This document shows positions 31,932-64,000 of a DNA stretch of 64,000 nt, in pieces; position 1 is the first letter of the stretch, and every line of letters begins with the position of its first letter. Position numbers and translations under genes: made by a program. Source of the DNA: Niabella beijingensis (GTDB lineage: Bacteria > Bacteroidota > Bacteroidia > Chitinophagales > Chitinophagaceae); NCBI RefSeq assembly GCF_020034665.1, contig NZ_JAIQDI010000002.1, positions 682,001 through 746,000 of the forward strand, written 5' to 3'. The notes under the pieces are model-generated. The model worked only from the letters and a program-made list of their open reading frames with translations, was not told the DNA's origin and searched no databases.

Positions 31932-31946
31932 GATAAAAACATTGGT

Positions 31947-47494: not shown

Positions 47495-48694
47495 ATGATA
47501 AACATGAATCAGACTTTTAAAGTGGCAACTTTTTCACTTTTGGCCGCAGGAATGTTTTCCTGCAAAAGCCCCGAAAACAAGGCTGGGGAACAAGGTGCTC
47601 CGGATTCAACAGCAGTAGCGGGTGCAGACAGTATATCTGCCCTGAATCCGGCAAACTTTGAAGCGACCATCGATGGAAAGAAAACCGGTTTGTATACGCT
47701 AAAAAATAATAACGGCATGCGGGTGGCCATCACCAGCTTTGGCGGCCGCATTGTAGGGCTTTGGGTTCCGGATAAATCCGGGAAACCAACAGATGTGGTG
47801 ATCGGCATGGGCAGCGTGGAAGGCTATCAGAAAGCAACAGAAGCTTATCTGGGCGCAACCATCGGCCGGTACGGCAACCGGATCGCCCATGCGCGTTTCA
47901 AGCTCGATGGCAAGGAATATACGCTGGCGGCCAATAACGGCCCCAACAGTCTGCATGGCGGTAAAAAGGGCTTCCAGTACGTGGTATGGGATGCCGCGCA
48001 GCCCAACGACAGCACGCTGGAATTAAGTTATACCAGTCCGGATATGGAAGAAGGTTTTCCGGGGGAACTGAAAGTAAAAGTGATCTACAGCATCACAGCG
48101 GACAATGCGTTAAAGATGGACTACAGTGCACAGACCAGCAAGAACACGGTGGTGAACCTTACCAACCATGCTTATTTTAATCTTAATGGTGAAGGCAGTG
48201 GGGATATCCTGAAACACACCGCGCAGATCTATGCCGATAAATACACACCGGTAGATGCAACCCTGATCCCGACCGGTAAACTGGACCCCGTGACCGGAAC
48301 GCCCTTTGATTTTACAAAACCGGTGGCCATCGGCGCCCGTATCGGTGAAGACAATACCCAGTTGAAATATGGAAAGGGGTATGATCATAACTATGTGCTC
48401 AATGGTACCAAGGGCGATTACGGGCTGACCCATGCGGCTACTTTTACCGGTGACCTGTCCGGCATTGTAATGGACATCTATACACAGGAGCCCGGGCTGC
48501 AGTTCTACAGCGGTAATTTTAATGAAGGAAAAAATACATTGAAATCCGGTGCAAAGGACATCCACCGGGGTGCCTTCTGTGCGGAGACCCAACATTTTCC
48601 GGATTCTCCCAATCAGCCTGCTTTTCCGAGCGTGGAATTAAAGCCGGGTGCAGCGTATCATACAGTTTCGTATTATAAATTTTCCGCGAAATAA
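47495..48694 (+). CDS. Aldose 1-epimerase (galactose mutarotase family) lipoprotein
   Basis: 399 aa. The lipobox GMFSCKSPE predicts a membrane-anchored periplasmic or surface protein, with an acidic linker before the catalytic domain. The fold markers are complete: GGRIVGLWVPD, GRYGNRIAHARF, SLHGGKKGFQYVVWDA with the active-site His, LTNHAYFNLNGEGSG with the second His, and QEPGLQFYSGNF with the catalytic Glu region. It speeds interconversion of sugar anomers released by the locus hydrolases. ATG 47504 is an alternative start. It ends before a good terminator and closes the operon. Confidence 0.92.
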   Translation: MINMNQTFKVATFSLLAAGMFSCKSPENKAGEQGAPDSTAVAGADSISALNPANFEATIDGKKTGLYTLKNNNGMRVAITSFGGRIVGLWVPDKSGKPTDVVIGMGSVEGYQKATEAYLGATIGRYGNRIAHARFKLDGKEYTLAANNGPNSLHGGKKGFQYVVWDAAQPNDSTLELSYTSPDMEEGFPGELKVKVIYSITADNALKMDYSAQTSKNTVVNLTNHAYFNLNGEGSGDILKHTAQIYADKYTPVDATLIPTGKLDPVTGTPFDFTKPVAIGARIGEDNTQLKYGKGYDHNYVLNGTKGDYGLTHAATFTGDLSGIVMDIYTQEPGLQFYSGNFNEGKNTLKSGAKDIHRGAFCAETQHFPDSPNQPAFPSVELKPGAAYHTVSYYKFSAK

Positions 48695-48719
48695 GGATCA
48701 TACAATTGTTGTAATATGC

Positions 48720-48748
48720 AAAGGGGCGCCAGCAGCGCTCCTTTTTTT
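48720..48748 (+). terminator. Terminator of the arabinan-type locus
   Basis: AAAGGGGCGC pairs with GCGCTCCTTT (one G-T pair) around loop CAGCA, followed by a run of T residues to 48748. It lies 25 bases after the mutarotase stop. Confidence 0.85.
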
Positions 48749-48996
48749 ATTGCCGGCCGTACAATCGTACCGGAATGGGCGCTACCTGTTGCAATGAAAA
48801 ACGATTGAGCAACCGGATTCCCCGGCTCAAGAAATTTATACCTGTTTTGTTATTTTATTTTTTTAAAAAAGTATCAGATTGTTATGTTATATTTTTTGCA
48901 AATAACTTATTGAATACATTGTTGTTTTAATTAAACATTAAGGATTTATTAATTCTGTTTTAACAAAAAAAATATTATAAAAAACTTTAAATAAGT

Positions 48997-49028
48997 TTTG
49001 TTATATCCGATGTTGTCTTATATATTTG
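48997..49028 (+). promoter_or_regulatory. Near-ideal Bacteroidota promoter of the second (fasciclin/M60) operon
   Basis: TTTG (48997-49000), a 20-base spacer and TATATTTG (49021-49028) match the Bacteroidota consensus TTTG-N19/20-TAnnTTTG at every defined base. The predicted start near 49035 leaves a leader of about 310 bases before ATG 49346. Confidence 0.65.
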
Positions 49029-49049
49029 GAATCCATTAAATAAAATAAA

Positions 49050-49072
49050 CCTTTTTAAATGTTTTAAAAAGG
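49050..49072 (+). repeat. Hairpin at the 5' end of the predicted leader
   Basis: CCTTTTTAAA (49050-49059) and TTTAAAAAGG (49063-49072) are exact complements with a 3-base loop, about 15 bases after the predicted transcription start. It may protect the 5' end or regulate the long leader. Confidence 0.5.
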
Positions 49073-49345
49073 AAATTTATGAAGGAAAAGACTGGAATTA
49101 ACAGACAGAACCCGAGATTATTGACAAATTGCTTTCCGTGTACGGACTTCGTTGGTTGTTCTTGAGATAGTTTTCTTTGGTGTATTGGGCAACGGTTCGT
49201 ACTGCATTTGCAAAAACCTTAAATACGAATGGCCGGCTTTGTTGTAATCTTTCCCGGAGGAGTGCTTCCTGCCGGGGGAGGCCGGAGTATGTATAAAAGA
49301 GAATTCATATAATAGAAATTTTTCAGAATTGATTAACTGTTTAGT

Positions 49346-52333
49346 ATGCAATTAAAAAAGCTGTTTATGCATTGCAGGTGGCAATTGATTGTTTTTTTGC
49401 TTTTGGGAGCCACTTCCACTTTCAATGGTATGGCCCAGGTTGACTCACTTTCCGACGCTGATAAGCAGGATTCAATTTTAAAGGCGGATGCCAGCCGGCA
49501 ATTCAATGAGGAATTGGAACGGTCCAATCATCCGGGCCTGAGCGATACCTCTTCCGTATTGACCCTGGTGCATTTGGACGGGATAAAAAAGACGCCGTTC
49601 ATCAGTGTGCAACAATACCTGAAAGGAAATGCTGCCGGTTTATACGTGAATGAAGAAAGCGGTGAACCGGGTGCCGAGCAATTTATGTTTATCAGAGGGC
49701 TTAACATGCCCGTGTTTAATAAGCAGGATCTGATCGCACAGCAGCCGGCTGTTTTTGTGAACGGTGTGCCGCTGGTACAGGAAAATGCGCTGACCTATAA
49801 TATCCAGCGTTACGATTTTAACAGGATCGGTTCCGGTACCAACTTTTTATCGACCATTGATGTGAACAATATCGAAAGAATCGAAGTATTGAAAACGCCC
49901 TCCGATCTGGCTGTACTGGGACCACTCGCAGCGAACGGTGCGATCTGGATCACCACCAAAAATGCGCAGTCAGGCTACCGGAAAATAAATGTGGATACGT
50001 ATTTCGGAGTGCTGAAACGACCGGCGGTATATAATGTAAACAGCCAGTATGAAAATGAATTCCGCGACCGGTACTATCAGAAGTATGCCACCCTGGATCA
50101 GATACAGAACAAACCATTGTATGTGGCCAATACACTGGATCCGAATTTTTACGGTCCTTCCGACTGGACGGATGTGTATTACAAGTCAAAACCGGTACAC
50201 TATATCGGTGTAGGGCTGCTGGGGGGTATGGACAGGGCCAACTTTATGTTTAACATCAGCAAAACAAAGGATCAGAATTTTGACGCTACTTCACTCAACC
50301 GCTACAATATTGTTTTTGGTATTAACATGTTGCCCGCAAAATGGCTGACCATCAGCGGGAACGTAAACGCCACGCGGATGGACCGGGACCGTAACCGGAG
50401 TTTAAGAGACCGTTTCGCCGAAACAAGATTTGTTCCGGATCTGGCCAACCCACTGGCGCCCAACGCAGCTTCCTATAACAGCTTCCTGAGGAAATACGAG
50501 GGCTCAGTAGATGACAATATCAATAACTCCTTTTTCGGATCTTTCGGGGTGCGCGCAAAATTTGATGAGCTGGAACTGAATACCCGCCTGGCGGTTGACT
50601 ACGAGGAATCGCTGCGGGATGTATTCTATGGTAAGGAACTGATGGATAACAACAATTTCCTGTCGACGTATACCGGGTTTAACCAGCGGTTTTCCGTACT
50701 CAATACGATCAAATATACACTGCCGTTTAATAATAACGCCCAGAAGATCCGCCTGGAAGCCGGACAAAGCTTCATATCTGATTTTGTAAAGTATGATTAT
50801 GTTCTTGCCTATAACAGTCCGAATGATTTTATTAAGATCAAGGAGATCTATCTGGATGATAATACGAAGTTTTTAAACCGTAATGATATTTTCGGATATC
50901 CGTTTACCGATAAGACCAAAGCGAATCTTTCTTCCATGTACGGGCGCATCGGGTACTCGTATAAAAAGCTGCTTGACCTTGACTTTGTAGGACGTTATGA
51001 CGGCTATTCTAATTTTTCCGAATATTCCCGCTGGCTGTTTACCCCGGTAGCAAGTGCCCGCTTCAATGTGCACGAACTGTTGAAAAGTGATGTATTGAGT
51101 ACGTTCGTATTGAAAGGATCCTGGGGACAGTTTGGTAACCTGCTGGCCGATAACCGCTTCAAGATCGGGCCTCAGTACCGCGTGGACCTGGGTTACTCGG
51201 ATGAACCCACCCTGGGTAGCTACGCCGGGCTGGCGGGCCTTTCACAACCCTATTCCTTTGGCTGGGTAAACGAATATTACAACTGGCCGTTCAGTGTGCG
51301 TACCAACATCGGAACAGAGATCGGGTTATACCAGAACCGGATTTTGTTGGGACTGGATTACTATAATAATAAGAATAAGAATCTGCTGGTGCCCACAAGC
51401 ATGCCTGCTGAAAACGGTTTTTCCTATAAGTATGTACAGGGGATGACGGTGCAGAACAGTGGTCTGAACCTGACATTCAATGCGGCATTAGTAAAGGACA
51501 GGAAAGATTTCGGCTGGAACCTGTTCGGTAATTTCAGCTGGAATAAAAATAAATTGCTGCAATTGCCTTATGGGCTTACTTCACTGGTTTATGGCAGCAA
51601 AAAGATCGAGATCGGTAAGCCGGTGGATGCCTACTGGGTATATGAGAATAAAGGGATCATCAATTCCGAAGCAGATATTCCCAGGGGAAAGCTGAATCCG
51701 GATGGAAGTTATAATCCGTTAACTTTTAGCGGTCTGATCAGTTTCTCTCCCGGCGATGCCTTGTGGGCGGATAATAACGGCGACGGCAATATTGATGTAA
51801 ATGATAAGGTGCTTAAAGGAAATGCGCTGCCGGTATATATCGGCGGATTGGGAAGTAATGTGACCTATAAAAGATTCACGCTTGATTTTCAGTTCTACCT
51901 GGCATTGGGGCAGCAGCTGCTGAACCGTTCTACCTCTAATAAACTGGATTTTGTAAACAACGAAAATTCCAGGGATATCAGTTATGTAAAGGAAGTGACT
52001 TTCTGGCAAAAGACCTTTGATTATAATGACTATCCGCTATACAACCCCTGGAGTAGTACGATCCCTTACCGCGTGGATCAGGATCTGTTTCTGGAAAATG
52101 CCGGCTACCTGAAATTGCGGAATGTATCACTTGGATATGATCTGGCAGGGCTCAACTTCCTGGATAAGGCAAAGTTTAATAAAGCGCTTTTATATGTAAC
52201 CGCTTCCAATCTGTTTACCATTTCTTCTTTTTCCGGAGGCGATCCGGAGCAGGTGGATTATATGGGGTATTATAATGGAAGGGCGCTGCCCATTCCGAAA
52301 TCTTTCATTATTGGTTTGAAACTGGACTTTTAA
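49346..52333 (+). CDS. SusC/RagA-type TonB-dependent transporter without the usual N-terminal domain
   Basis: 995 aa. Signal peptide ending NGMAQ. Unlike the two other SusC proteins here it lacks the CarboxypepD_reg module; about 60 polar residues (DSLSDADKQDSILKADASRQ) lead directly to a divergent plug (YLKGNAAGLYVNEESGEPGAEQFMFIRGLNMPV, VNNIERIEVLKTPSDLAVLGPLAANGAIWI). The barrel ends in ALPIPKSFIIGLKLDF with terminal Phe. susD follows 18 bases downstream. It is the first gene of a plus-strand run of nine tightly spaced genes reaching the window edge. Confidence 0.9.
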   Translation: MQLKKLFMHCRWQLIVFLLLGATSTFNGMAQVDSLSDADKQDSILKADASRQFNEELERSNHPGLSDTSSVLTLVHLDGIKKTPFISVQQYLKGNAAGLYVNEESGEPGAEQFMFIRGLNMPVFNKQDLIAQQPAVFVNGVPLVQENALTYNIQRYDFNRIGSGTNFLSTIDVNNIERIEVLKTPSDLAVLGPLAANGAIWITTKNAQSGYRKINVDTYFGVLKRPAVYNVNSQYENEFRDRYYQKYATLDQIQNKPLYVANTLDPNFYGPSDWTDVYYKSKPVHYIGVGLLGGMDRANFMFNISKTKDQNFDATSLNRYNIVFGINMLPAKWLTISGNVNATRMDRDRNRSLRDRFAETRFVPDLANPLAPNAASYNSFLRKYEGSVDDNINNSFFGSFGVRAKFDELELNTRLAVDYEESLRDVFYGKELMDNNNFLSTYTGFNQRFSVLNTIKYTLPFNNNAQKIRLEAGQSFISDFVKYDYVLAYNSPNDFIKIKEIYLDDNTKFLNRNDIFGYPFTDKTKANLSSMYGRIGYSYKKLLDLDFVGRYDGYSNFSEYSRWLFTPVASARFNVHELLKSDVLSTFVLKGSWGQFGNLLADNRFKIGPQYRVDLGYSDEPTLGSYAGLAGLSQPYSFGWVNEYYNWPFSVRTNIGTEIGLYQNRILLGLDYYNNKNKNLLVPTSMPAENGFSYKYVQGMTVQNSGLNLTFNAALVKDRKDFGWNLFGNFSWNKNKLLQLPYGLTSLVYGSKKIEIGKPVDAYWVYENKGIINSEADIPRGKLNPDGSYNPLTFSGLISFSPGDALWADNNGDGNIDVNDKVLKGNALPVYIGGLGSNVTYKRFTLDFQFYLALGQQLLNRSTSNKLDFVNNENSRDISYVKEVTFWQKTFDYNDYPLYNPWSSTIPYRVDQDLFLENAGYLKLRNVSLGYDLAGLNFLDKAKFNKALLYVTASNLFTISSFSGGDPEQVDYMGYYNGRALPIPKSFIIGLKLDF

Positions 52334-52351
52334 ATAAACAAGGTTTAAGTT

Positions 52352-53968
52352 ATGCGTAAGAACTATTTTAAATATTCCGTCTTTTGTTTCTCCCTGGCAG
52401 TATTGCTTGTTGCGCTTGGTTGCAACAAGAAGCTGGACACACAATCTTCGTCTGCTCAATCTTCGGAGGTTATGTGGAAATCGTATGATGATGCCCGGAA
52501 CGGCCTTGTTGCGATATACGGACTTTCCCGTGCTGCACTGGCTGAAAATAATGCGCACTGGATGTACGGTGATCTCCGGAAAGGGGATTTCGTAGCCACC
52601 TCCAGCGGGAACTACCTGGATGCGATTATTAAGAACGAACTGAACAAAGGGTTCCCGCAGATCAAACAGCTCACCAACTGGCGCCGCTTTTATGCAGCTG
52701 TTGATGCCTGTAATACCTTTATTGAAAATGCAGAGAGCTGCAAACAGGACCTCCGGTATTCCGATCTGAACTGCACTGTGGATGTTGCACAGGCCCATAT
52801 GCTGCGTTCCTTCCTTTATTTTTATATGGTGCGGATCTGGGGAGATGTGCCCCTGATCACCGCTGCTTCGAAGAACGGGGAAACCAACCAGGTGGCCCGT
52901 ACCCCGCAAGACCAGGTAATGGATTTTTGTATCAATGAACTGAGGTTGTACCGGGATAGTTTGCCCACTGAATATGGCGGCGATGATAAATCCAAACTGA
53001 ATTATGACGGGAGTTATTACGGACAGAGCTGGAGCAGCTGGGGGAACGCTTTCTGGGGATACTACCAGTGTCTGGGATTACTTGCTCATATGTATGCGTG
53101 GAAGGGAGACTATCAATCCTGTCTGGCTGTTACAACGGAGATCAATTCTAATCCCGCTGCCGCCCGTACAGGATATGTGAGCTCTTCAAACGCCCGGGCC
53201 TATCTCGCCGGAAGAAACAGCATCTTTTACAGCAACGGGGTGAAGGGCTCACTCTGCTACCAGATCATCTCATTCCCTTATAACATGGCCAACAGGGAGT
53301 CCGGTCCGAGCGGGGTAGGACATCTGGAATCACTGACCCTTGCCAGTCCTTATGTGGTTAGGGCCAAGCCTGATATCTATGTACCGCGGGACACGATTGC
53401 CCGATGGTTTTACTATAACGGGGATTTCCGGCATCCCTATCAGCCGGAGTTTAGTAACTATGAAGATATTTACTTTACCAACTATTACGGAACGATCCCC
53501 ATTTTTGCGAAGTTTAAGAATATCGCCACCGGCTCAAACACCTTTTCCATCTTTGGCTCCGCCATTCCTATTTTCCGCTTTGAAGATAACCGTCTGCTGA
53601 TGGCCGAGGCACAGCTGATGCTCGGGCAATTTGCGGATGCCTATAAAACATTGAACTCTGTGCGTGAGATCCGGAACACTCCCGGATACTGGGAAGATAC
53701 CAACAGCCAGACAAGACCAGGGTATAAGCTTAAGCCGACAGAAGCCAGTATGGAAGGCGGCCTTTTATATAATATTTTCCGCGAACGGCGTATTGAACTG
53801 GCCGGTGAAGGCGGATGGTGGTACGACCAGGTACGGTATAACCGTATTGCAAGGAACAACCCTGCGTTTAACAAACTGATAGATGAAGGGGGCATTTACT
53901 GGCCCATTGATGAAGAGATCATCAGCAAAAATCCATTGATTGAACAAAATTCTTATTGGAAGCGATAA
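52352..53968 (+). CDS. RagB/SusD-type surface lipoprotein
   Basis: 538 aa. The lipobox region VALGCNKKLD gives the acylated Cys. The fold is recognisable from MWKSYDDARNGLVAIYGLSRAAL, AHMLRSFLYFYMVRIWGDVPLIT, FRFEDNRLLMAEAQLMLGQFADAYKTLNSVREIR and IFRERRIELAGEGGWWYDQVRYN, with a C-terminal YWPIDEEIISKNPLIEQNSYW. It should form the lid of the SusC transporter encoded just upstream. The next gene begins 11 bases after its stop. Confidence 0.92.
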   Translation: MRKNYFKYSVFCFSLAVLLVALGCNKKLDTQSSSAQSSEVMWKSYDDARNGLVAIYGLSRAALAENNAHWMYGDLRKGDFVATSSGNYLDAIIKNELNKGFPQIKQLTNWRRFYAAVDACNTFIENAESCKQDLRYSDLNCTVDVAQAHMLRSFLYFYMVRIWGDVPLITAASKNGETNQVARTPQDQVMDFCINELRLYRDSLPTEYGGDDKSKLNYDGSYYGQSWSSWGNAFWGYYQCLGLLAHMYAWKGDYQSCLAVTTEINSNPAAARTGYVSSSNARAYLAGRNSIFYSNGVKGSLCYQIISFPYNMANRESGPSGVGHLESLTLASPYVVRAKPDIYVPRDTIARWFYYNGDFRHPYQPEFSNYEDIYFTNYYGTIPIFAKFKNIATGSNTFSIFGSAIPIFRFEDNRLLMAEAQLMLGQFADAYKTLNSVREIRNTPGYWEDTNSQTRPGYKLKPTEASMEGGLLYNIFRERRIELAGEGGWWYDQVRYNRIARNNPAFNKLIDEGGIYWPIDEEIISKNPLIEQNSYWKR

Positions 53969-53979
53969 TTGTAGATATT

Positions 53980-55158
53980 ATGAAAAGACAGTTATTTTTC
54001 TTAGGTACCCTGTTGTTGCTGATAGCAGCGGTCTCTTCCTGCAACAAGGCAAAAGGTCCTTATTATAATGCAACGATTACAGCCACTGTTCAATTCAATG
54101 GCACGGTGTTGGAATATCTGGAAAGCCAGAAAGGGATTTATGATTCAATGGTGATTGTGATCCGCCGTTATCCCGACCTGGTTCAAAAGCTCTCTTCGCC
54201 CGGAGCAATGACCCTATTTGCAATACCTAATACTGCATTTGAACTGGCGCAGAAGAATTTTAACCGGGAGCGTGCAAAACAGGACAGCGTTCCGCTTTAT
54301 TTTAAACCTGCAGCTTATAATCTGAACCGACCGGATTCCGGTATGTATCATTATGAGGCGCTCGAAGATCTGATCACCCGTTACATTTTTGACAGCGTAT
54401 ATAACTATGATGAGCTGGCAAAATCGACCAGCGGGTTTCCGACCCATTCCCTGCTGGGCTACCAGATGAATTTGATGGCGGTGCAACAAAATGCGGTGGG
54501 CGCAACAAAAGACGGCCCCAAAGTAATAGAGTTGAGCGATATGAATAATTCTATTTTTCGCCGCTATTGGAAATCGGCTTTAACCAGCACTATAGCCGCT
54601 GTTCAAACCAGCAATGCACTGGTGCATGTGTTAACCCAGAATCATGAGTTTGGCTTTGCCAGCTTTACACAGAAACTGCTGGATCCCACCATCGACCGGG
54701 GCGGCTGGGTTCCTATTGCCTGGCATTCGCAATACCTGGGCACCTGGGGCGGCACTGTTTTTCATGCCCTGGATAACGACTACGATACCCGCTGGCATAC
54801 GCTTACTTCTAATCCTCCGCCATTGCCGATATTTTTCACGGTGGATATGAAGAGCATGACCACCATCGGAGGGCTTACAATAAAGTGCAGGGGTGATGGC
54901 GGGCATGACGGTTCTCCGGTTGACTTTAATATAGAATTTGCGCCGGATGGGGCGAACCTGTCGGATTCTTCGAGCTGGACCAGGTTCCGCTTTTTTTACC
55001 CGCCGGATGCCTCAACGATCATGATTCCTAAACGCTTCAATTTAGATCGAAAGATCACCGCGCGTTATTTCCGCTTTACAGTAAATCAGGTGTTTTCAGG
55101 AAGGCTTTATACGGACCGGCCTTATTCCAACCTGGATGAGATTTGGATGAACTATTAA
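53980..55158 (+). CDS. Fasciclin-domain lipoprotein with C-terminal discoidin-like domain
   Basis: 392 aa from ATG 53980 (MKRQLFF); the frame extends upstream into susD. The lipobox is AVSSCNKAK. Residues about 30-225 form a FAS1-like domain: FNGTVLEYLESQKGIYDSMV, TLFAIPNTAFELA (first conserved FAS1 box) and NALVHVLTQNHEFGF (second box). The C-terminal 150 residues (NDYDTRWHT, PIFFTVDMKSMTTIGGLTIKC, ITARYFRFTVNQVF) have the pattern of an F5/8-type-C discoidin domain, often a carbohydrate-binding fold. It is therefore probably a surface adhesion or ligand-binding partner of the SusCD pair upstream. A shorter paralogue lies at 61011-61718. Confidence 0.8.
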   Translation: MKRQLFFLGTLLLLIAAVSSCNKAKGPYYNATITATVQFNGTVLEYLESQKGIYDSMVIVIRRYPDLVQKLSSPGAMTLFAIPNTAFELAQKNFNRERAKQDSVPLYFKPAAYNLNRPDSGMYHYEALEDLITRYIFDSVYNYDELAKSTSGFPTHSLLGYQMNLMAVQQNAVGATKDGPKVIELSDMNNSIFRRYWKSALTSTIAAVQTSNALVHVLTQNHEFGFASFTQKLLDPTIDRGGWVPIAWHSQYLGTWGGTVFHALDNDYDTRWHTLTSNPPPLPIFFTVDMKSMTTIGGLTIKCRGDGGHDGSPVDFNIEFAPDGANLSDSSSWTRFRFFYPPDASTIMIPKRFNLDRKITARYFRFTVNQVFSGRLYTDRPYSNLDEIWMNY

Positions 55159-55172
55159 TTATGCAATAAATT

Positions 55173-56219
55173 ATGAATAGATTTTTTTTAGCAGGTTTAT
55201 TGGTGCTGGGTCTGGTGTCAGCAGAGTCGTGTAAAAAGCTGCTTCCTGATGACCGGAATGCGATCGACCCTGCTGCAACCTACCTTACAACGAACTTTTC
55301 TCCGATATTAGGAAGAAATTATATCGCAAGAGGCGCGTTTAGTTTTGGAGAGTCGACCCTGCCGATGGAATTTGAGGTACTCAATCTTCGCAGATTTAAC
55401 GGGGAACCAGCCCCCGAGCTCACCCAGGATATCTATCCGGTAACCGTCTGGAAGACGACCGGGGCAGGTGCATACACCGGCTTTGAAAAATCCATTGCCG
55501 AAATAGAAGCAAAACGCACGATTGAGAACCATCGCATTCTTGAAGTGCGGAAAAGTTCCGGCGATATCGTTGTTTGGGGAGATGTGAATTCCTCCAAACT
55601 GATAACACGGCCGGACTCTGGCTATGTGTTTGATGTGAAGGTTTCCAACAGCGGCGCTACCCGGTATTTTTATAACCTGCGTTTTATGCCTTACAAACCG
55701 GTACCACACGATCCGCATAATTATAACCTGAATACCGGCATGGCCTCCAGCCCTGCGCTGACCTCCGGTACCAGCGGTATTTCACTGACTAATTTTGTGA
55801 GGAGCAGGGACAATGTAAGCATGTCTGTAGGGGAAGTGGACGTCTATTTTAATAAACTGACCGGTGGCAGCGGCAATTCGCTCACCTTCAAATTTCTCGA
55901 TTCTTCCTATTCACCCATCAATCCCAAGCTGTTCAACCAGACAAAATGGGATAAACTGGTACACGGGTTTGATATGAAACTGACGGATACCGAGGTGAAG
56001 TACACTGTTGCCTACCCGATACCGCTGGTTCAGATTCCCACAACCTATACGAACAGTGCGGGTAACCGGGCGAATGTTCAGTTTTCCTATTACCGGCTCG
56101 GGCCCGGGGGCTTTGGGGTAACGGCGACCCTCGGATTTAATTTCGCCATTTATCAGAAAGGAGACTGGGAGATCGCTTTTCACTTTAAGAATACATCACC
56201 CAAATTTACCAACGATTAA
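55173..56219 (+). CDS. Surface lipoprotein, DUF5007-like, accessory to SusCD
   Basis: 348 aa. Lipobox VSAESCKKLL. The mature region (DPAATYLTTNFSPILGRNYIARGAFSFGESTLPMEFEVLNLRR) is beta-rich and resembles the DUF5007 lipoproteins of Bacteroidota as I remember them; this assignment needs a profile search. Repeated beta-strand patterns continue to a C-terminus DWEIAFHFKNTSPKF. No catalytic motif is visible. Its place after susC, susD and the fasciclin gene suggests a surface ligand-binding protein. It lies 14 bases after the fasciclin gene and 31 before the next susC. Confidence 0.72.
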   Translation: MNRFFLAGLLVLGLVSAESCKKLLPDDRNAIDPAATYLTTNFSPILGRNYIARGAFSFGESTLPMEFEVLNLRRFNGEPAPELTQDIYPVTVWKTTGAGAYTGFEKSIAEIEAKRTIENHRILEVRKSSGDIVVWGDVNSSKLITRPDSGYVFDVKVSNSGATRYFYNLRFMPYKPVPHDPHNYNLNTGMASSPALTSGTSGISLTNFVRSRDNVSMSVGEVDVYFNKLTGGSGNSLTFKFLDSSYSPINPKLFNQTKWDKLVHGFDMKLTDTEVKYTVAYPIPLVQIPTTYTNSAGNRANVQFSYYRLGPGGFGVTATLGFNFAIYQKGDWEIAFHFKNTSPKFTND

Positions 56220-56250
56220 TCTGCTTATATAGAATTATAAACGAAATGTT

Positions 56251-59200
56251 ATGAGGATACTGACGGGGTTCTTTCTTATGTTTTTTTGTTTTTCAATGCA
56301 GGTGCTGCATGCACAGCAGGTTGAAATACGGGGAAAGGTATTTGATGATAAAACGCAGCAACCCATAGAGGGCGTATCTGTAGTGGTGGGCAACAGAGGC
56401 ACCCATACCGATTCACTGGGGCAATTTGCGATAATAATGGCCCGGACGGAGACCCTGAACTTCTCCTATGTGGATTATAAAAAGCAAACGTATAAACCGG
56501 GAGGAGACGAAAATGACCTGGTGATTTACCTGGTTTCGGACGATGCAAAAAGTTCCATGAATGATGTGGTTGTTGTGGGATTCGCAAAAAAAAGCAAGGT
56601 GTTGTCAACCGGATCATCTGTTGTGATCACCTCCGATGATATTAAGGATGTGCCGGCTGCCAACCTCGCCGACCTCTTGCAGGGGAAGGTGCCGGGGGTA
56701 AATATCCAGACGACAAGTGGTATGCCCGGTGCACGGAGTTCCATATTTCAAAGAGGGCTGAGCTCTGTTGAGGTTTCCGGTTCCGGTAACGATGCCTATC
56801 TGGCTTCCACCCAGCCCCTGATCATTATTGACGGTGTCCCCATCGATCCCAACACTGACTATGAATATGGTTTTGCTACGGCGGGTGCGGGGGTAAGTCC
56901 CTTAACCCTGATACCTGCGGAAGATATTGAGGATATACAGATCTTAAAAGATGCTGCAGCAATATCCGTTTACGGTTCGCGTGGCGCCTATGGTGTGTGG
57001 ATCATCAATACAAAAAAGGGACGCTCGGGTAAACCGGAGATCAATTACACCACGAATTTCTTTCTGAGTACGGTGCCTTCGTTAAGGGATATTTATGGGG
57101 GCCGTATCGAACGGGAAACAAAGATCGACCAGATCATCCGGTACAATGAATACCTCTCTGAACATGCGGGATGGGCAATGGTGAACGGCCTTCCGTATCT
57201 TTCAGACAGTCTGAATCCGTATATAAATAACTCGACGAACTGGCAATCCTATTTCTTCAGGAACAGCTTCAACCAGAATCATAATATGAGTATAAGAGGG
57301 GGAGATCCGAGCTTTAATTACAAGATCAACCTCGGCTATTATAACGAAAAAGGGATCATAGAGAATACCGGGATGTCGAGGTATACGCTGGGTATGAATA
57401 CGATCTATGAACCCAAGTCAAAAAAGATAAAGCTGGTGGCAAATATCAATGCGAACAACACGGTACGTAATAACGGAAGCGGGATAGGACTGCTCCAAAC
57501 CGGTGTGGCTACCAGTGGAATGGCTTCTACCAATTTACCACCGCCGGACATCTATACGGAAAATAATGCGGCCCTGGCAGCCTTTCAGATTGAAGAGGAC
57601 AATAAGGCCAGCACCATCCTTTCAAATGTTCAGATGGATGTAATGATGCATAAAAATTTACGGTTCCACACAGAAGGAAGCCATTCCTATTCGCATTCCA
57701 ACAGCAATACTTTTTATCCGTCGTGGTTAAACAGCGGAAGCAGTTATTATCTGACAACGGGGGCTAATCCGCTGGCGCAATACAATACATTTTCAAGGAT
57801 CACCAATAATTATTACAACCGTAACGTGCTGACCTATACCAAGGCATTTAATGAAGAGAAGCATTATATTCAAACCTATGCTTTCACGGACCTGATCGCG
57901 GATATGATCCGGAGCAATGGAATGGCGCTTTACGGTGCTCCGAGTGATGTGATCTCCGGTCCGATCGGGTACAATCTTTCCAACTCAAGGTTTGGTGCAA
58001 ACGGAACACCGTATAACAGGAGGACATTCGGGTATGGTGCGGCGTTTACTTATGCCTATGAACAAAAATATGTGGTGGATCTTAACTACCGGATTGACGG
58101 GACCTCGACAAACGGACCGCTTTCCGGGTATCGGCACAATCCTTCCATCGGATTGAAATGGAACCTTTATAAAGAGGGTTTTATGCAGGATGTTAACTGG
58201 GTGGATTTTGCCTCGCTTCGCGGCAGCTGGGGCCGGAACATCGTTCCTCAGGGAAGCGTCTTCGATATTTATGGGAAATACTATCCCGGCGGAACCTATA
58301 TGGGGCAGCCATCTGTTGGGCTGAATTTCGAATCGGCCCCCAATGCCTACTTCCTGCCCAATACATCGATCAGCTGGAACGGAGGGCTGGAAGCAAGTTT
58401 CTTCAAAGGAAGGGTATCACTTGAATATGATGCCTACTACCGGACCGTGGAAAATATCCGGAGAAGCATCTCTATAGTAAAAGAGTCCGGGTATTCAACA
58501 AAACCTACGAATGATGTAAGTATGGTGAACTACGGACACGAACTGTCGCTGCGTTTTAAACCCGTTCAAACCAAAAATTTTACCTGGAACCTGATGGTTA
58601 ACGGTGCGTATAATAAGAATGTGCTTACGCATTTGCCGAAAGATTCCCGGCAAATTGTTGTAAACCCCAACGATCTCTTGAACCTGCCTATCTTATACCG
58701 GCTGGGAAGAAATGCGTTAACAAATCTCGTATTCAATACGAAGGGCGTTTATGCTACCGATGCAGACGTTCCGGTGGATCCGCTCACCGGCCTGCCGCAG
58801 CGGGTGGGATCGGAATATTTGAAGGGCGGAGATCCCATTTTTGCTGATCTGAACGGGGATTACGTGATCGATAATAATGACCGGGTAGCTGTGGGTGATC
58901 CGCAGCCAAAACTGACCGGGGGGGTGATCAACAACCTGTCTTATAAGAACTGGTCCCTGTCTATTCAATGTTCTTATACATTCTTCAGGGATGTGTTGAA
59001 TACGCCGCTGGCAAAACGGTTCCGTTACTTTTATACGCCCACCAGCAACGCCAATTCACTGCCCCCGATCGAAGCATACGACTACTGGCAGCAGCCCGGA
59101 GATATCGCCACTTACCCGAATCCCTACTCTTATATCCATAATTCAAGGATAGATGCGTACCGCTATAATCAAACCTTGTTTATGGAAGACGGGTCTTATT

Positions 59201-59421
59201 TTAAGTTCAATGTGGTTACGCTGAGCTATGCATTTCCAAAAGAGCTGCTTTCCCGGATCAGCGTTAAAACAGCACGGGTATATTTCACCGGGTACAATGT
59301 GCTGATACTTTCCAACTATTCGGGTCCCAACCCGGAGAATGTATCAGATCTTGGAAGGGATCATCCCGACGGCTATCCCAATCCCAAAAAGTTTTCAATT
59401 GGTTTAAATGTTACATTATAA
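56251..59421 (+). CDS. SusC/RagA-type TonB-dependent transporter (second of the operon)
   Basis: 1056 aa. Signal peptide ending VLHAQQ. A CarboxypepD_reg domain (IRGKVFDDKTQQPIEGVSVVVGNRGTHTDSLGQF) is followed by MNDVVVVGFAKKSKVLSTGS and the plug (DLLQGKVPGVNIQTTSGMPGARSSIFQRG, ILKDAAAISVYGSRGAYGVWII). The barrel ends PNPKKFSIGLNVTL. The N-terminal domain and plug are standard, unlike the first SusC of this operon, so the two pairs probably accept different ligands. susD follows 10 bases downstream. Confidence 0.94.
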   Translation: MRILTGFFLMFFCFSMQVLHAQQVEIRGKVFDDKTQQPIEGVSVVVGNRGTHTDSLGQFAIIMARTETLNFSYVDYKKQTYKPGGDENDLVIYLVSDDAKSSMNDVVVVGFAKKSKVLSTGSSVVITSDDIKDVPAANLADLLQGKVPGVNIQTTSGMPGARSSIFQRGLSSVEVSGSGNDAYLASTQPLIIIDGVPIDPNTDYEYGFATAGAGVSPLTLIPAEDIEDIQILKDAAAISVYGSRGAYGVWIINTKKGRSGKPEINYTTNFFLSTVPSLRDIYGGRIERETKIDQIIRYNEYLSEHAGWAMVNGLPYLSDSLNPYINNSTNWQSYFFRNSFNQNHNMSIRGGDPSFNYKINLGYYNEKGIIENTGMSRYTLGMNTIYEPKSKKIKLVANINANNTVRNNGSGIGLLQTGVATSGMASTNLPPPDIYTENNAALAAFQIEEDNKASTILSNVQMDVMMHKNLRFHTEGSHSYSHSNSNTFYPSWLNSGSSYYLTTGANPLAQYNTFSRITNNYYNRNVLTYTKAFNEEKHYIQTYAFTDLIADMIRSNGMALYGAPSDVISGPIGYNLSNSRFGANGTPYNRRTFGYGAAFTYAYEQKYVVDLNYRIDGTSTNGPLSGYRHNPSIGLKWNLYKEGFMQDVNWVDFASLRGSWGRNIVPQGSVFDIYGKYYPGGTYMGQPSVGLNFESAPNAYFLPNTSISWNGGLEASFFKGRVSLEYDAYYRTVENIRRSISIVKESGYSTKPTNDVSMVNYGHELSLRFKPVQTKNFTWNLMVNGAYNKNVLTHLPKDSRQIVVNPNDLLNLPILYRLGRNALTNLVFNTKGVYATDADVPVDPLTGLPQRVGSEYLKGGDPIFADLNGDYVIDNNDRVAVGDPQPKLTGGVINNLSYKNWSLSIQCSYTFFRDVLNTPLAKRFRYFYTPTSNANSLPPIEAYDYWQQPGDIATYPNPYSYIHNSRIDAYRYNQTLFMEDGSYFKFNVVTLSYAFPKELLSRISVKTARVYFTGYNVLILSNYSGPNPENVSDLGRDHPDGYPNPKKFSIGLNVTL

Positions 59422-59431
59422 AATTCAACGC

Positions 59432-61000
59432 ATGCGCTATAGAAAGTATTTATTGATCATTGCAGTAGTTGCAGGTCTGATTACCGGCACAGGTTGTAAA
59501 AAATTTCTCAATGTAAACCCCGTAGATTCCATGTCCGGAAATAATTTCTGGAAAAGCAGGGATGATGTGGAAAAATTTATTACAGGTTCTTACATATTGC
59601 TGAGGAATTATACCTGCATGGATGGCTATTCCCTGCTGGCCCTTGCAGACTATCGTTGCAGTGCATGGATCCCGTCCTCGCTGGGAACGGCAAGGACCTA
59701 TATCTCCAACCTGAATAATAACCGCATTAAAAACCTCCTGACTGAAACGGCCGGCTGGGCGGGGGATTATGGTAATTTCGACCAGAGCATCAATCAGTTT
59801 GGATTTAAGAATATGTCGGACTGGGGCTATATGTACCGGATCATCACCAGTACCAATACCATACTGGCGAACATTGACAGCAAGGATATAACGGATATTA
59901 CTGAAGAAGAGCGGAAACGCTACAAGGCCGAAGCCATCTTTATAAGAAGCCTGACTTACTTTTTGATGGTCCGTCATTGGGGCGATGTGCCGTATATTAC
60001 GGATCCTTCTGATGAAACACCGCATGAGCGGATGAACCAGATCGAAGTGTTTAAAAATTGCATTGCCCTGTTGAAGGAGACCAAGAACGATCTGCCCTGG
60101 ACATATGCGGATCCTACCATGCGTGGTGTAAGAGCGATGAGGGGCGGGGCACTGGCGCTGATGATGGAAATGAACATGTGGATGGCCGGTTTCGATGAGG
60201 CCAATGAAAAAGCCTATTTCCAGGAAACGGTGAACCTGGGGGATGAATTGATCGGTCAGAACGGCGGTGCCTATGAATTGCTGCCACTGGATAATTATAA
60301 AGAGATTTTCAAGGGAACATCCAAAGAAAGTCTTTTTGAAATAGGGCAGGACTATAACTATGGAGAAACCTTCGGCCTGATGGCGACCATTGCCGATATC
60401 GTATTGCGGACGCCATACAAGAAGAATGTGACCTCCACCTATCTGTACTACTCAACGCCTTACCTGCAGCAATTATACGCTTCCGAAAATAACGGACAAA
60501 ATGATAAACGCATTGATCTTTGGTTTGAGCAACCGACGATGTACAATGCCACCGGCCAGTTTGTATTTAAAAAATTCCTGAACACCTTCGCTACGCAGCA
60601 GGAAACGGAGAACCCCAATGATGCAAAGATCCTTTTCCGTTATGTGGATGCCTATCTGCTCAGAGCTGAGGCATTGGAACGCCTGGGACGTTACGCAGAA
60701 GCGGTAGCTGATGTAAACGTGATCCGGACAAGAGCAGGTGCTGAATTGTTTACCGGAATGGAGACCAACCAGTTTGGTCAGCTGCTGAGTGATGCGATCT
60801 GGTGGGAGCGCGAGCGGGAATTAATGGGAGAAAGCTCCACCTTCTATGATCTGGTACGCACCAAACGGATCCTGAGCGGGCAATACACGCCGTTCCCGAT
60901 TACTTATGAGGAGTTTTTGAGCGGAGCCTGGACCTATCCGATTCATCAGAATGTAATGTTAAGCAACCCCAAAGTAAAACCGAATTTATTCTGGATGTAA
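59432..61000 (+). CDS. RagB/SusD-type surface lipoprotein (second of the operon)
   Basis: 522 aa from ATG 59432. Lipobox ITGTGCKKFLNVNP, the classic SusD beginning. Diagnostic parts are NFWKSRDDVEKFITGSYILLRNY, AEAIFIRSLTYFLMVRHWGDVPYITDP, LFRYVDAYLLRAEALERLGRYAEAVADVNVIRTRAGA and DAIWWERERELMGESSTFYDLVRTKRIL. It is the binding partner of the preceding SusC. The fasciclin gene follows 10 bases downstream. Confidence 0.93.
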   Translation: MRYRKYLLIIAVVAGLITGTGCKKFLNVNPVDSMSGNNFWKSRDDVEKFITGSYILLRNYTCMDGYSLLALADYRCSAWIPSSLGTARTYISNLNNNRIKNLLTETAGWAGDYGNFDQSINQFGFKNMSDWGYMYRIITSTNTILANIDSKDITDITEEERKRYKAEAIFIRSLTYFLMVRHWGDVPYITDPSDETPHERMNQIEVFKNCIALLKETKNDLPWTYADPTMRGVRAMRGGALALMMEMNMWMAGFDEANEKAYFQETVNLGDELIGQNGGAYELLPLDNYKEIFKGTSKESLFEIGQDYNYGETFGLMATIADIVLRTPYKKNVTSTYLYYSTPYLQQLYASENNGQNDKRIDLWFEQPTMYNATGQFVFKKFLNTFATQQETENPNDAKILFRYVDAYLLRAEALERLGRYAEAVADVNVIRTRAGAELFTGMETNQFGQLLSDAIWWERERELMGESSTFYDLVRTKRILSGQYTPFPITYEEFLSGAWTYPIHQNVMLSNPKVKPNLFWM

Positions 61001-61010
61001 ATTAAAGACT

Positions 61011-61718
61011 ATGAAAAGAAAATTAAACTATACATTGATCAGCGCTTTTCTGCTGCTGCTGCTAATGGCCACAGCCTGTCAGAAAAAATATTACTATGAC
61101 TCTGGTTTAAGCAAATCCGAGTTCAATGGCACTGTGATGGAGTACCTGGAATCCAACCCGGTAATATTTGATACGCTGGTGCAGGTCATAAAACTGGCAG
61201 GGATGGAATCCTATTTCAGGGACAGCAGTCTTACTTTTTTCGCTCCCGCGGATTCAAGTATCCATCTTACCATTGATTATTTTAATGCCAATCTGAAAGG
61301 ATTTGGACAGGATACGATAGAAGTCCTCTCCGATGTAAAAAAGGAAGTCTGGGGTGCGCTATTGAAAAGCTATATGTTCAAAAGCATAAAGGGACTGGAA
61401 GATTACCCGCAACTGGACTTAGATAACAAACAGGCTTTTCCCGGTGAGTTTTCGCGTTCCATGGGAGGACGGGTAATGAATATCGGCGCTGTTTTTACAG
61501 ATGCAAGGGGGATCAAGTACCAGGGGCTGCGTTATCTGAATATATCTTACGTGCCGAATGAAGCGGCGCCCTATAATTCCTGGATACTGGGCCGGGTGGC
61601 CACCTGTAATATAAAACCCAGGAACGGAATGGTTCATGTGCTCCAATATGCGTCTCATTATTTTGGCTTTGATCCGGGAGATGCATGGCAGCTTGCAAGA
61701 TATTATGGCTTTAACTAA
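61011..61718 (+). CDS. Fasciclin-domain lipoprotein (short paralogue)
   Basis: 235 aa. Lipobox LMATACQKKY. The mature protein is a single FAS1-like domain paralogous to the N-terminal half of the 53980-55158 product: FNGTVMEYLESNPVIFDTLV near the start, TFFAPADSSIHLT as first FAS1 box and NGMVHVLQYASHYFGF as second. It lacks the discoidin-like extension. FAS1 domains mediate adhesion or ligand binding. Occupying the same slot after susC-susD as its paralogue, it marks a repeated module. Confidence 0.82.
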   Translation: MKRKLNYTLISAFLLLLLMATACQKKYYYDSGLSKSEFNGTVMEYLESNPVIFDTLVQVIKLAGMESYFRDSSLTFFAPADSSIHLTIDYFNANLKGFGQDTIEVLSDVKKEVWGALLKSYMFKSIKGLEDYPQLDLDNKQAFPGEFSRSMGGRVMNIGAVFTDARGIKYQGLRYLNISYVPNEAAPYNSWILGRVATCNIKPRNGMVHVLQYASHYFGFDPGDAWQLARYYGFN

Positions 61719-61738
61719 ATCTAATTGAGAATAAGGAC

Positions 61739-63499
61739 ATGAATTTAAAGACAAATAAAACAGGTCTGATATGTAGCCTGGTATCAGTGATGCTGCTTTG
61801 CGCGTATTGTACCCGGAAAAATGATCAGAGTTTCTCCGGCGCCTATAAACCGGCGGTAAAGACATTTGTGAAATTCTCCGGAAGTATTCCGGTTCCGTCT
61901 TCAGGAACAGCTGGTACTTTAGTGACCTTCAAGATCGCGGGGGTCGATTCACTTTTGTTGCTCCAGCCGGGGGATGTCCAGTTTTTATTGAATGGGATAG
62001 AGGCAAAGATCGAGAAGATGTCGCCGTCCGACAGTACGATCACCATTGTTGTTCCGGACAACGCATCCTCGGGAGCCGCCGCCATCGTTGTAAAGGACCG
62101 GATGTTCTATGGCCCGCAATTTAAAGTCAGGGGTGATGTCTGGATCGATTCCACCTTTAATAATTTGGGCACTGATCAGCAGGGCAAACCTATTATGGGT
62201 TCCGGAACCAACGCCAACAGTACGATAAACCGGGTTTATCTGGAATCCATTGGTGCTGCAGAAAGCATCTATATAATGGGGTCGTTCACCAGTTTCAATG
62301 GTGAAACCGGCTATACGTCTATCTCGGGGGGCGCAAATATTACTTCCAGCAGAAGCTTTCTGCTGAAACTGGATCCCAGGACCGGTACCATTAAAAATGA
62401 TTTTGCAAAAGGGGCGGGTACCGACGGAAGTGTTATGGGCCTGCTGCCGTTGACGCGATTTCCGGGATACCTGGTATACGGAGGATTCAGTCTGTATAAT
62501 AACCGGGACGGCGTAAATAATATGACAAGGATGTATCCCAATGGCGGGATGGACTCTGTCATTCAAAATGTCTATAATCCCAACCCGCTGGAAACACAGT
62601 ATAATGTGGATACATTGCCTGCTTTTATCGGAGGAACGGATATTGGGGTTATAAAGGCATTCCTGGATAAAGACCAGCGAATTATCAGTATCGGTAATTT
62701 CAAGTACCACCGGAAAAATTTATATGATCTGTCTACCTATTTCAATGTGACCCGTCAAAATACCTATGTACCGAATATTGTTGCAACGGATCAGGATGGT
62801 AATCTGGATACCACTTTTAACTATGATATCACCAGAGGACAGTTGTATACGGGCGCTAATAATATCGTTACCGATGCGGTGCAGATAAGAGATGGAAATG
62901 GTCCCAGCGGCAAGATCATTGTTGTAGGAGGCTTTACAGCATTCAACAATGTACCGGTGCAGCGCATTTTTATGCTGGATCGCAATGGCCAGCCCGATCC
63001 CGGTTTCAAGGCCCAGGCTAATGGCGCGATCAACAGGATTACCTATAATGCCACAACAAGAAAGCTGTTGGTGGTGGGTATCTTCACACAATTTAACGGG
63101 CAGTCGACCCCGAATGGGTTGGTTATGCTCAATGAAGATGGCACCACTTATAATTCCTTTACAATGGGCGAATTATTGCCCAACTCCGCCTCAGCCGGTA
63201 ACCTGGTAACCTATGCGGGGCAGTTAAACGACGGAAGGGTCGTGATCGGCGGAAACTTTGCCAAATATAAAAACCCCGGGGGAAGCGCTTTTATCACCCG
63301 GCAGAACTTTATGATCCTGAATGCCGATGGAACAATGGCGGAGAATATGAATAACACGGGCGCGTTGAACGGGACAATTACTGATATGCTTGAAACCAAA
63401 TCCGGAACGAAAAAAGCGTTGCTTCTGGTGGGACGTTTTAGTTTGTTTGATAATGAAACAGTGGGGAATATTATCCGGATCGGAATAGAGCCAAAATAA
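61739..63499 (+). CDS. DUF5008-like surface lipoprotein with IPT/TIG-like domain and delta-60 repeat propeller
   Basis: 586 aa. The lipid-modified Cys is probably in LLCAYCTRKN, an imperfect lipobox. Residues about 45-125 form an IPT/TIG-like sandwich (SGTAGTLVTFKIAGVDSLL; STITIVVPDNASSGAAAIVV), resembling DUF5008 from memory. From about 130 onward delta-60-type propeller repeats occur: DGNLDTTFNYD, RNGQPDPGFKAQANG, KIIVVGGFTAFNNV, LLVVGIFTQFNGQ, RVVIGGNFAKYKN. No catalytic residues are apparent; a surface ligand-binding role is likely. It lies between the fasciclin gene and the M60 peptidase gene with 20 and 12 base gaps. Confidence 0.78.
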   Translation: MNLKTNKTGLICSLVSVMLLCAYCTRKNDQSFSGAYKPAVKTFVKFSGSIPVPSSGTAGTLVTFKIAGVDSLLLLQPGDVQFLLNGIEAKIEKMSPSDSTITIVVPDNASSGAAAIVVKDRMFYGPQFKVRGDVWIDSTFNNLGTDQQGKPIMGSGTNANSTINRVYLESIGAAESIYIMGSFTSFNGETGYTSISGGANITSSRSFLLKLDPRTGTIKNDFAKGAGTDGSVMGLLPLTRFPGYLVYGGFSLYNNRDGVNNMTRMYPNGGMDSVIQNVYNPNPLETQYNVDTLPAFIGGTDIGVIKAFLDKDQRIISIGNFKYHRKNLYDLSTYFNVTRQNTYVPNIVATDQDGNLDTTFNYDITRGQLYTGANNIVTDAVQIRDGNGPSGKIIVVGGFTAFNNVPVQRIFMLDRNGQPDPGFKAQANGAINRITYNATTRKLLVVGIFTQFNGQSTPNGLVMLNEDGTTYNSFTMGELLPNSASAGNLVTYAGQLNDGRVVIGGNFAKYKNPGGSAFITRQNFMILNADGTMAENMNNTGALNGTITDMLETKSGTKKALLLVGRFSLFDNETVGNIIRIGIEPK

Positions 63500-63511
63500 A
63501 AACCAGCAATT

Positions 63512-64000
63512 ATGAAAAAAGGATATAAATATTTGTCACTTTTTGCGGTACTGATTTTAACGGGGTTGGCCGCCTGTAACAAATACGGGTACAATTTTGC
63601 CGATGGCTATGAGGGCGGACAGGAAAAAGCCAATATGCCGGGAGGGCAATCGGACTCAATGGGCATAAATCTTTCAAAGATCTATGCTGCCCGTAATTTT
63701 CCCGGACTCGTTGGAGACGCAGAGCCGCGCTTGAACAATGTAAATGTGACCGTCGACTTTTCGGAACGGTATGTACCGGCTTCAGATATCCGGATCAGTT
63801 CTGCTCCGCAACCCTGGTATAGTACCGGGTTGTATGCTCCCACCGGCGAGCCTGTTACGATTGAAGTTCCCCAGGGCGTGAATGGAATTGTAGCGGTAAT
63901 CGGCGGTTGGACCGACAACCTGGACGGAGTACCGGCAACCAAAAGAGATCCCGTTATTTTTAACCAGCTGGCGCTGCAGCCGGGAAAGAATGTGATCCGG
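63512..64000 (+). CDS. M60 (enhancin-like) metallopeptidase lipoprotein, N-terminal part only
   Basis: 163 codons from ATG 63512 to the window edge, still open. Lipobox GLAACNKYG. After a Gly-rich linker the sequence WYSTGLYAPTGEPVTIEVP, GVNGIVAVIGGWTDNLDG, KRDPVIFNQLALQPGKNVI is characteristic of the beta-sandwich at the beginning of Peptidase_M60 domains. The catalytic HExxH motif would lie beyond base 64000 and is not seen. M60 enzymes of gut and soil bacteria cut O-glycosylated proteins such as mucins, so this gene gives the best hint at the ligand of the operon. Confidence 0.75.
   Translation, partial: MKKGYKYLSLFAVLILTGLAACNKYGYNFADGYEGGQEKANMPGGQSDSMGINLSKIYAARNFPGLVGDAEPRLNNVNVTVDFSERYVPASDIRISSAPQPWYSTGLYAPTGEPVTIEVPQGVNGIVAVIGGWTDNLDGVPATKRDPVIFNQLALQPGKNVIR

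Follow-up and report, generated by a model that had tools for sequence, protein, structure and literature searches.

Organization of the operon

The window analyzed here is a stretch of 64,000 nucleotides from Niabella beijingensis (assembly GCF_020034665.1, contig NZ_JAIQDI010000002.1, positions 682,001 to 746,000 of the forward strand), and the subject of this study is the operon at its 3' end, which encodes two unlike SusC-SusD pairs together with fasciclin-like (FAS1) and other lipoproteins. Judged by profile matches and scores, the first SusC (SusC1) lacks the N-terminal extension (NTE) and, as a rule, the TonB box, and the second (SusC2) has both.

Open reading frame (ORF) calling confirmed nine plus-strand genes in the window separated by 10-31 bases, as the initial annotation had described; two of the starts set mechanically, 53956 and 59408, fall inside the gene before, and taking the following in-frame ATG instead leaves gaps of 11 and 10 bases, respectively. 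The first gene encodes SusC1 (49346..52333), a barrel and plug without the PF13715 extension or TonB box, identified by TIGR04056, Pfam and Foldseek. It is followed by the lipoproteins SusD1 (52352..53968; PF07980, 1.6e-16, with a lipobox), FAS1-A, which carries a C-terminal F5/8C (discoidin) domain (~53980..55158; PF00754, 8.1e-12, with FAS1 assigned through orthologues and hhalign), and DUF5007, with predicted beta-sandwich domains (55173..56219; Pfam DUF5007, 1.1e-80). The second half begins with SusC2, a complete SusC with the NTE and the TonB box DVVVVGFA (56251..59421; TIGR04056, 648 bits; PF13715, 8.4e-13), and continues with the lipoproteins SusD2 (~59432..61000; PF07980, 9e-22), FAS1-B (61011..61718) and a Pfam-assigned DUF5008 protein with DUF5122 beta-propeller repeats (61739..63499). 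The ninth gene encodes an M60-like protein (63512..65533, the window ending at 64000; PF13402, 2.5e-30, with M60-like_N and F5/8C), which is a predicted pseudopeptidase with SEIGR at the HExxH site.

Extension of the sequence past 64000 revealed that the operon goes on with genes for three more lipoproteins, namely a phosphodiesterase-like protein (L008 2538-3551, gap of 4 bases), a DUF1735/BT_3987-like protein (L008 3580-4851, gap of 28) and a phosphodiester glycosidase, NAGPA (L008 4868-6634, gap of 16). After NAGPA a gap of 233 bp precedes ApbE and a hexosaminidase of glycoside hydrolase (GH) family 20 (L008 6868-9932). By our own pattern, all ten non-SusC operon proteins through NAGPA have a lipobox and the ApbE and GH20 proteins have none, which makes NAGPA the likely boundary of the surface set. 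The absence of a glycoside hydrolase claimed initially held for the operon through the M60 gene. Past that gene come NAGPA, inside the operon, and GH20, after ApbE; if co-regulated with the SusC-SusD genes, they might make this a canonical polysaccharide utilization locus (PUL).

Conservation of the eight-gene core

A search at E up to 1e-3 detected DUF5007 in 5 of 395 phylum genomes and 33 of 294 family genomes, the source genome counted. We took in 27 of the 33 strong loci, leaving out G639, G542, G467, G640, G401 and G492, whose genera were already represented, and 11 of the 12 weak loci, leaving out G507, a contig-end fragment. In all 27 strong loci the core susC1-susD1-FAS1-DUF5007-susC2-susD2-FAS1-DUF5008 lies on one strand in the same order, the edge of the stretch cutting DUF5008 in two of them and susC1 in one. 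The order was the same in all 80 named GTDB loci, sampled from 133 named relatives: 73 were assigned through ORF labels and seven through labels and tblastn, which placed FAS1-A, DUF5007, FAS1-B and DUF5008 as expected (in L127 DUF5008 is partial, the contig ending there). The genera with the core include Niabella, Chitinophaga, Arachidicoccus, Paraflavitalea, Pedobacter, Sphingobacterium and Mucilaginibacter. The conserved gene order on which the initial annotation had made its module depend was thus found in relatives, and because the order is kept there the pattern is not due to chance; these comparisons indicate that the eight-gene core is an old unit.

Three such modules are present in the source genome, in each of which 9-11 kb lie between the DUF5007 gene and an M60 gene, and DUF5008 was detected at these three sites only. 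Among 107 full-length DUF5007 loci (96 distinct), the first half of the core was always accompanied by the second. The distinct count comprises the 95 DUF5007 rows left from 106 after removal of 11 duplicates, together with L140, whose DUF5007 ORF was uncalled; the SusC1, SusC2 and M60 row counts given below include duplicate rows.

Downstream of the core the gene content varies. Among the 27 loci, 17 have M60 between two phosphodiesterase-like genes (PDEa-M60-PDEb), three have M60 without PDEa (the window and N. aurantiaca C3 and C13), four have PDEa and a protein of ~470 residues, one has no same-strand gene and two are cut. In 71 named loci, the gene after PDEa encodes M60 in 25, another protein of ~470 residues in 44 (phmmer; often cut by the locus end) and neither in two. 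The ~470-residue proteins, such as those at L060:5686-7098, L095:2677-4077 and L101:2782-4233, have C-terminal F5/8C or CBM6-type domains and an N-terminal part without a Pfam match in the three scanned, which by reading looks like DUF1735 repeats. Since the M60 slot is often filled by another family, M60 is optional.

SusC1 and SusC2 differ at the N-terminus

SusC1 exceeds the TIGR04056 cut-off of 368.25 with 392.8 bits, and its match starts at profile position 99; in all 56 SusC listed, of 184 candidates in the genome, the match starts at positions 1-3. The neighbouring same-strand pair at C1:297840 and C1:304209 is among those starting at positions 1-3, so asymmetry is not a general feature of such pairs. 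The NTE was then sought with a profile made from 29 further SusC encoded in the genome. It matched none of the 103 SusC1 rows, all 104 SusC2 rows and all 30 control SusC from the same genome, 29 of these 30 controls being the source of the profile. In agreement, Pfam found PF13715 in 0 of 25 SusC1 and 23 of 24 SusC2, and the Plug domain in 25 of 25 SusC1; alignments A2 and A3 omit 2 of the 27 SusC1 and 3 of the 27 SusC2 rows, which have cut ends or joints.

The TonB box was scored with a matrix, which took over from a first regular expression that was too narrow, matching 9 of 30 controls, 69 of 104 SusC2 and 3 of 103 SusC1. The controls supplied the training words, of which 25 of 29 were kept and four un-box-like ones dropped, and their search region was widened. 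Scores above the 95th percentile of shuffled sequences were obtained for one of the 103 SusC1, 79 of the 104 SusC2 and all 30 controls, and no SusC1 scored above 10 bits. Median scores were -3.4 for SusC1 (shuffles, -1.3), 12.2 for SusC2 (shuffles, 2.4) and 25.1 for the self-trained controls. A previous version of the matrix, covering 91 of the 103 SusC1, had given 2 of 91 for SusC1 and 69 of 104 for SusC2.

The structure model of SusC1 (mean pLDDT 74, with residues 1-50 and 60-69 below 50) shows a plug and a barrel and matches SusC/RagA structures (Foldseek, 4.9e-51), and the ratio of nonsynonymous to synonymous substitution rates (dN/dS) of SusC1 is 0.073-0.12. SusC1 is hence a SusC homologue by profile, plug and barrel fold, yet not a standard SusC, having no NTE. 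In the model levan SusC Bt1763, whose NTE corresponds to PF13715, TonB-box mutants are reported to grow like a SusD deletion (PMC7782687). Because removal of the TonB box disables this model SusC, SusC2 alone is predicted to be powered, and SusC1 is probably not drivable in the usual way.

Origin of the two SusC types

In the trees, SusC1 and SusC2 each formed one clade, and the two joined apart from the 31 other SusC of the genome that were compared (the 30 best-scoring and the upstream one), a grouping in which long stems could attract each other. The SusC1 and SusC2 trees are largely congruent, and recent duplication inside the operon was ruled out, since the stems of both clades are deeper than their radiation. 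The wider family holds together in the trees, with its base unresolved.

Single SusC-SusD-FAS1-DUF5007-like units were clear among the weak relatives G269, G261, G656, G468 and G579; other weak loci were less complete, G556 having an uncalled SusD, G610 only SusC-SusD and G433 being cut. The NTE and a TonB-box-like word are present in all seven SusC seen in weak single-unit loci. These single four-gene units, the grouping of SusC1 with SusC2 and their N-terminal difference support the duplication and specialization of whole import units proposed initially.

Adjacent tandem pairs were found in G417, G620 and G660, the only ones among the fetched loci, and their first SusC is also without an NTE (L236:3004-5412, L237:3056-5464 and, on the reverse strand, L238 4879-7290). 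These proteins have 802-803 residues, with the plug by reading about 20 residues past the signal peptide, and a full SusC is encoded downstream. They seem, by the same reading, to be a shorter version of an unpowered SusC, with scant room for a TonB box. A tree joining SusC1 and these proteins in a single clade scored 11.6 log units above the free quick tree, with a p value of 0.77 in the approximately unbiased (AU) test; one NTE loss shared by SusC1 and the first SusC of G417, G620 and G660 is compatible with this test, which did not reject it.

FAS1 and DUF5007 lipoproteins

The gene identities proposed at the outset were upheld by Pfam or other profiles for SusC, SusD, DUF5007, DUF5008 and M60; for FAS1 they were upheld by family profiles, the single window sequences being below the Pfam cut-off or unmatched. 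The window FAS1-A has no Pfam FAS1 match, although Pfam FAS1 was found in the three orthologues scanned, and the window FAS1-B alone matches Pfam Fasciclin at 0.0042, under the cut-off. The profiles of FAS1-A and FAS1-B match each other at 99.9% and 2.9e-34 (hhalign), and the FAS1-B family profile matches the FAS1 domains of TGFBI in the PDB at 6.8e-9. The fasciclin and discoidin domains, which the initial annotation took to be of adhesion type, more plausibly serve as subunit or glycan-binding domains. DUF5007 gave a good structure model, for which the comparison returned no informative match among the listed families, other families remaining possible, and its sequence matched no PDB chain.

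Lost active sites in M60 and phosphodiesterase-like proteins, and a changed NAGPA motif

In the M60 family, the HExxH motif and a Glu provide the zinc ligands. In the window copy HExxH reads SEIGR, with both His gone, and the Glu of the conserved GETTNN motif is replaced by Ala. Among 48 module M60 rows, HExxH is intact in 35, cut in three and absent in ten, the latter representing nine distinct loci (the window, N. aurantiaca C3 and C13, L105, L106 and L108-L111), eight from Niabella and one from the metagenome-assembled genome (MAG) Sphingobacteriales bacterium 41-5; L110 and L111 seemingly retain the GETTNN Glu. The motif is intact in the two paralogous modules of the source genome and in four non-module M60, so the view of M60 as the enzyme of the operon fits the paralogous modules and not the window copy, for which an active peptidase was dropped, HExxH being absent from what is only a homologous domain. 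Three pairs of M60 without the zinc site, two of which share L108, gave dN/dS values of 0.095, 0.093 and 0.047; synonymous sites are saturated in the window pair, which is therefore outside these figures. Such strong constraint suggests that these genes are maintained by selection and makes pseudogene decay unlikely, and the window M60 likely only binds cargo.

The phosphodiesterase-like proteins show comparable losses in DxxGH and DHG, the metal-ligand motifs of alkaline-phosphatase-superfamily phosphodiesterases, with motifs set by comparison with ENPP4, a weak match (E 0.037). The Asp of DHG is absent in 21/21 PDEa and 20/20 PDEb and the His of GH in 21/21 and 19/20, while the Asp of DG is retained in 20/21 and 19/20 and the His of DHG in 14/20 PDEb; the exception, PDEb G409_1347, has an intact DxxGH and NG for DG. 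At the position of DHG the window copy has TTTQVS. A nucleic-acid or phosphodiester cargo, suggested by PF01663, was dropped since the DHG Asp is lost in 41/41 and the GH His in 40/41, and binding of phosphate groups by PDEa and PDEb remains compatible with the residues retained. The window NAGPA motif is NFNGG, and its two best solved relatives have NLDGG. Altogether, the loss of metal ligands in the PF01663-type module copies and the window M60 is a warning against reading function from domain names.

A proposed mixed importer and its alternatives

The fixed set of four plus four genes suggests a mixed complex. The reading that we prefer, with an even chance of being right, is that the two unlike SusC-SusD pairs and the FAS1 lipoproteins form one mixed importer in which SusC2 alone is TonB-driven and the M60-like protein only binds. 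SusC1 would pair with SusC2 like SusC dimers elsewhere, FAS1-A and DUF5007 sitting on SusC1/SusD1 and FAS1-B and DUF5008 on SusC2/SusD2. A glycoconjugate would be held by the lipoproteins with discoidin and propeller domains together with the former peptidase and phosphodiesterase. Fragments set free by enzymes encoded elsewhere would enter via SusC2, and SusC1 would act as a second docking barrel or lid platform. More tentatively, SusC1 and SusC2 may form an obligate heteromer in which SusC1 is permanently uncoupled, the FAS1 proteins are couplers and the ex-enzymes are reused as cargo-binding subunits. The lipoboxes of all ten non-SusC proteins through NAGPA are consistent with the surface capture complex with extra subunits envisaged by the initial annotation, the complex itself being a prediction.

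Several points weigh against a mixed importer. The TonB-box score is imperfect, as 25 of the 104 SusC2 fail the shuffle test. TonB could contact SusC1 via an unrecognized segment, and SusC1 may still transport, since the plug, the barrel and strong constraint are retained. Contact between SusC1 and SusC2 and co-transcription of the genes are predictions from sequence. Moreover, loci were sought via DUF5007, so that a lone susC2-susD2-FAS1-DUF5008 unit was detectable in the source genome only. Finally, the neighbouring genes point both ways with regard to cargo, to arabinose glycans (GH43-like and GH127 upstream) and to hexosamine (GH20 downstream).

Our weak guess is that the cargo consists of glycoprotein or arabinogalactan-type glycan fragments. 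GH127 and epimerase genes adjoin the operon in three Niabella loci, on the arabinogalactan side. On the glycoprotein side are the intact M60 of other modules, the GH20 next to the window copy and the GH2, fucosidase and GH20 genes that adjoin a module of N. aurantiaca corresponding to one of the paralogues; plant arabinogalactan proteins, we guess, would combine both kinds.

A doubtful alternative is that the operon extends the upstream arabinose-type PUL, with which it would share one two-component regulator, and imports the arabinogalactan or arabinan fragments that the GH43-like and GH127 enzymes of this PUL produce. The upstream PUL contains SusC-SusD, GH127 and aldose epimerase genes, a GH-like gene and others that look GH43-like by reading, outside any profile scan. 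The GH43-like, GH127 and epimerase genes are also upstream in N. aurantiaca; a Niabella MAG, in which the locus begins at this point, has GH127 and the epimerase. This neighbourhood was seen in only these three loci, the named loci showing ~4 kb upstream of susC1, and the N. aurantiaca module corresponding to one paralogue has its GH2, fucosidase and GH20 neighbours instead. A terminator-like stem-loop on the plus strand (48720..48744), found by a consensus scan only, stands between the two units, and the operon begins at 49346, about 600 bases past it; shuffled sequence gave more such stems (17.5) than the region itself (11), and an Rfam scan of 46000-64000 gave nothing at the gathering score. 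The parallel with Bacteroides thetaiotaomicron BT0262-90 (PUL5) cuts both ways. This PUL contains glycoside hydrolases. BT0268 is described as its SusC-like, arabinogalactan-responsive susC, and the locus is listed as an arabinogalactan PUL; going by annotation only, BT0269-79 comprises SusD, hypothetical, DUF5007, SusD and DUF5124 proteins followed by carbohydrate-binding and alkaline-phosphatase family proteins, as in the operon (PMC10434189). However, a 2026 table gives the PUL5 substrate as unknown (PMC13088901), and a hybrid two-component system mutant of BT0262-90 is reported to retain 79% growth on arabinogalactan. When 119 genomes from the class of Bacteroides were searched with a SusD model at E 1e-150, there was no match, the controls being silent too.

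It is fairly unlikely that the operon encodes two separate homodimeric SusC-SusD importers that each have lipoproteins of their own and are expressed together to take up two pieces of one cargo, with SusC1 reaching TonB through an unrecognized segment. In both pairs the barrel, the plug and the SusD partner are retained and under constraint, and single four-gene units exist and are presumably functional alone. Nevertheless, the loss of the extension and TonB box from SusC1 is near-complete family-wide, few pre-plug residues are left in the three tandem relatives, and the first half never occurred without the second in the DUF5007 loci counted above.

That the operon is an ordinary tandem susCD locus, nothing beyond the kind described in 2019, seems unlikely. 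The tandem loci called trsusCD (PMC6499787) likewise have two same-strand susC-susD pairs with strict positional synteny, and susCD loci free of carbohydrate-active enzymes (CAZymes) with PF00149 and PF01663 proteins are also in print there, nucleic-acid targets being suggested for them (section 9). However, the 2019 loci were defined as directly adjacent pairs, whereas two lipoprotein genes separate the pairs of the window, each pair has a FAS1 protein and SusC1 is without NTE and TonB box; sections 8 and 9 of that paper do not mention an asymmetry in TonB box or NTE, FAS1 partners or degenerate active sites. Tandem susCD loci are already known, and we found the asymmetry nowhere in print, although the text search for a missing TonB box was weak ('susc' also matched susceptibility). 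For such pairs, SusC heterodimers were called conceivable (Lapebie et al., 2019; PMC6499787, section 8), and the asymmetry provides a reason and a test for this idea.

Very unlikely, lastly, is an active surface O-glycopeptidase M60 that cuts glycoproteins into glycopeptides imported by both pairs, as the characterized M60 PUL BT4240-50 is thought to work (PMC11992087), since despite the intact HExxH of most module rows the window copy has lost its zinc site and the M60 slot often holds another family.

Relation to characterized systems

The mixed importer proposed here shares features with several known systems. BT4240-50 also combines SusC-SusD with an M60 lipoprotein, and its BT4245 is a DUF1735-type surface glycan-binding protein; it differs in having a single SusC-SusD pair, an active M60, GH2 and GH109 (PMC11992087). 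The uncharacterized BT3013/BT3015 locus similarly has SusC-SusD and an M60 lipoprotein, reportedly without CAZymes, and neither 'fasciclin' nor 'FAS1' occurs in that paper (PMC11992087). In the levan utilisome the SusC dimer is a platform for surface lipoproteins, carried on its lip (PMC7618045), and the levan proteins Bt1762-63 are the top fold match of SusC1 (PMC7782687); these systems differ from the operon in that their SusC forms a homodimer and has both the NTE and the TonB box, and in their active levanase. The reason for SusC dimers is unsettled, one suggestion being made in the utilisome paper (PMC7618045), and an unlike SusC pair with one TonB box amounts to a natural experiment on whether one energized barrel can serve two.

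Another structure-search match was PDB 5fq6, which we take to be BT2261-2264, a SusC-SusD with two extra lipoproteins; it has a single pair, and DUF5007 matched no PDB chain in sequence.

Flanking genes

Some additional observations concern the surroundings of the modules. On the minus strand of the window (31137-35105), a two-component hybrid regulator is apparently split, by reading, into kinase-like and response-regulator/AraC-like ORFs 15 bases apart; the regulator adjoining one N. aurantiaca module is a single protein of 1378 residues. ApbE and GH20 also lie 3' of the operon in N. aurantiaca C3, and ApbE also follows the G570 module. Three genes for BNR-repeat proteins, one for a sulfatase and two unassigned ones lie downstream of the N. 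aurantiaca C13 module in the same direction (L093:8017-16375).

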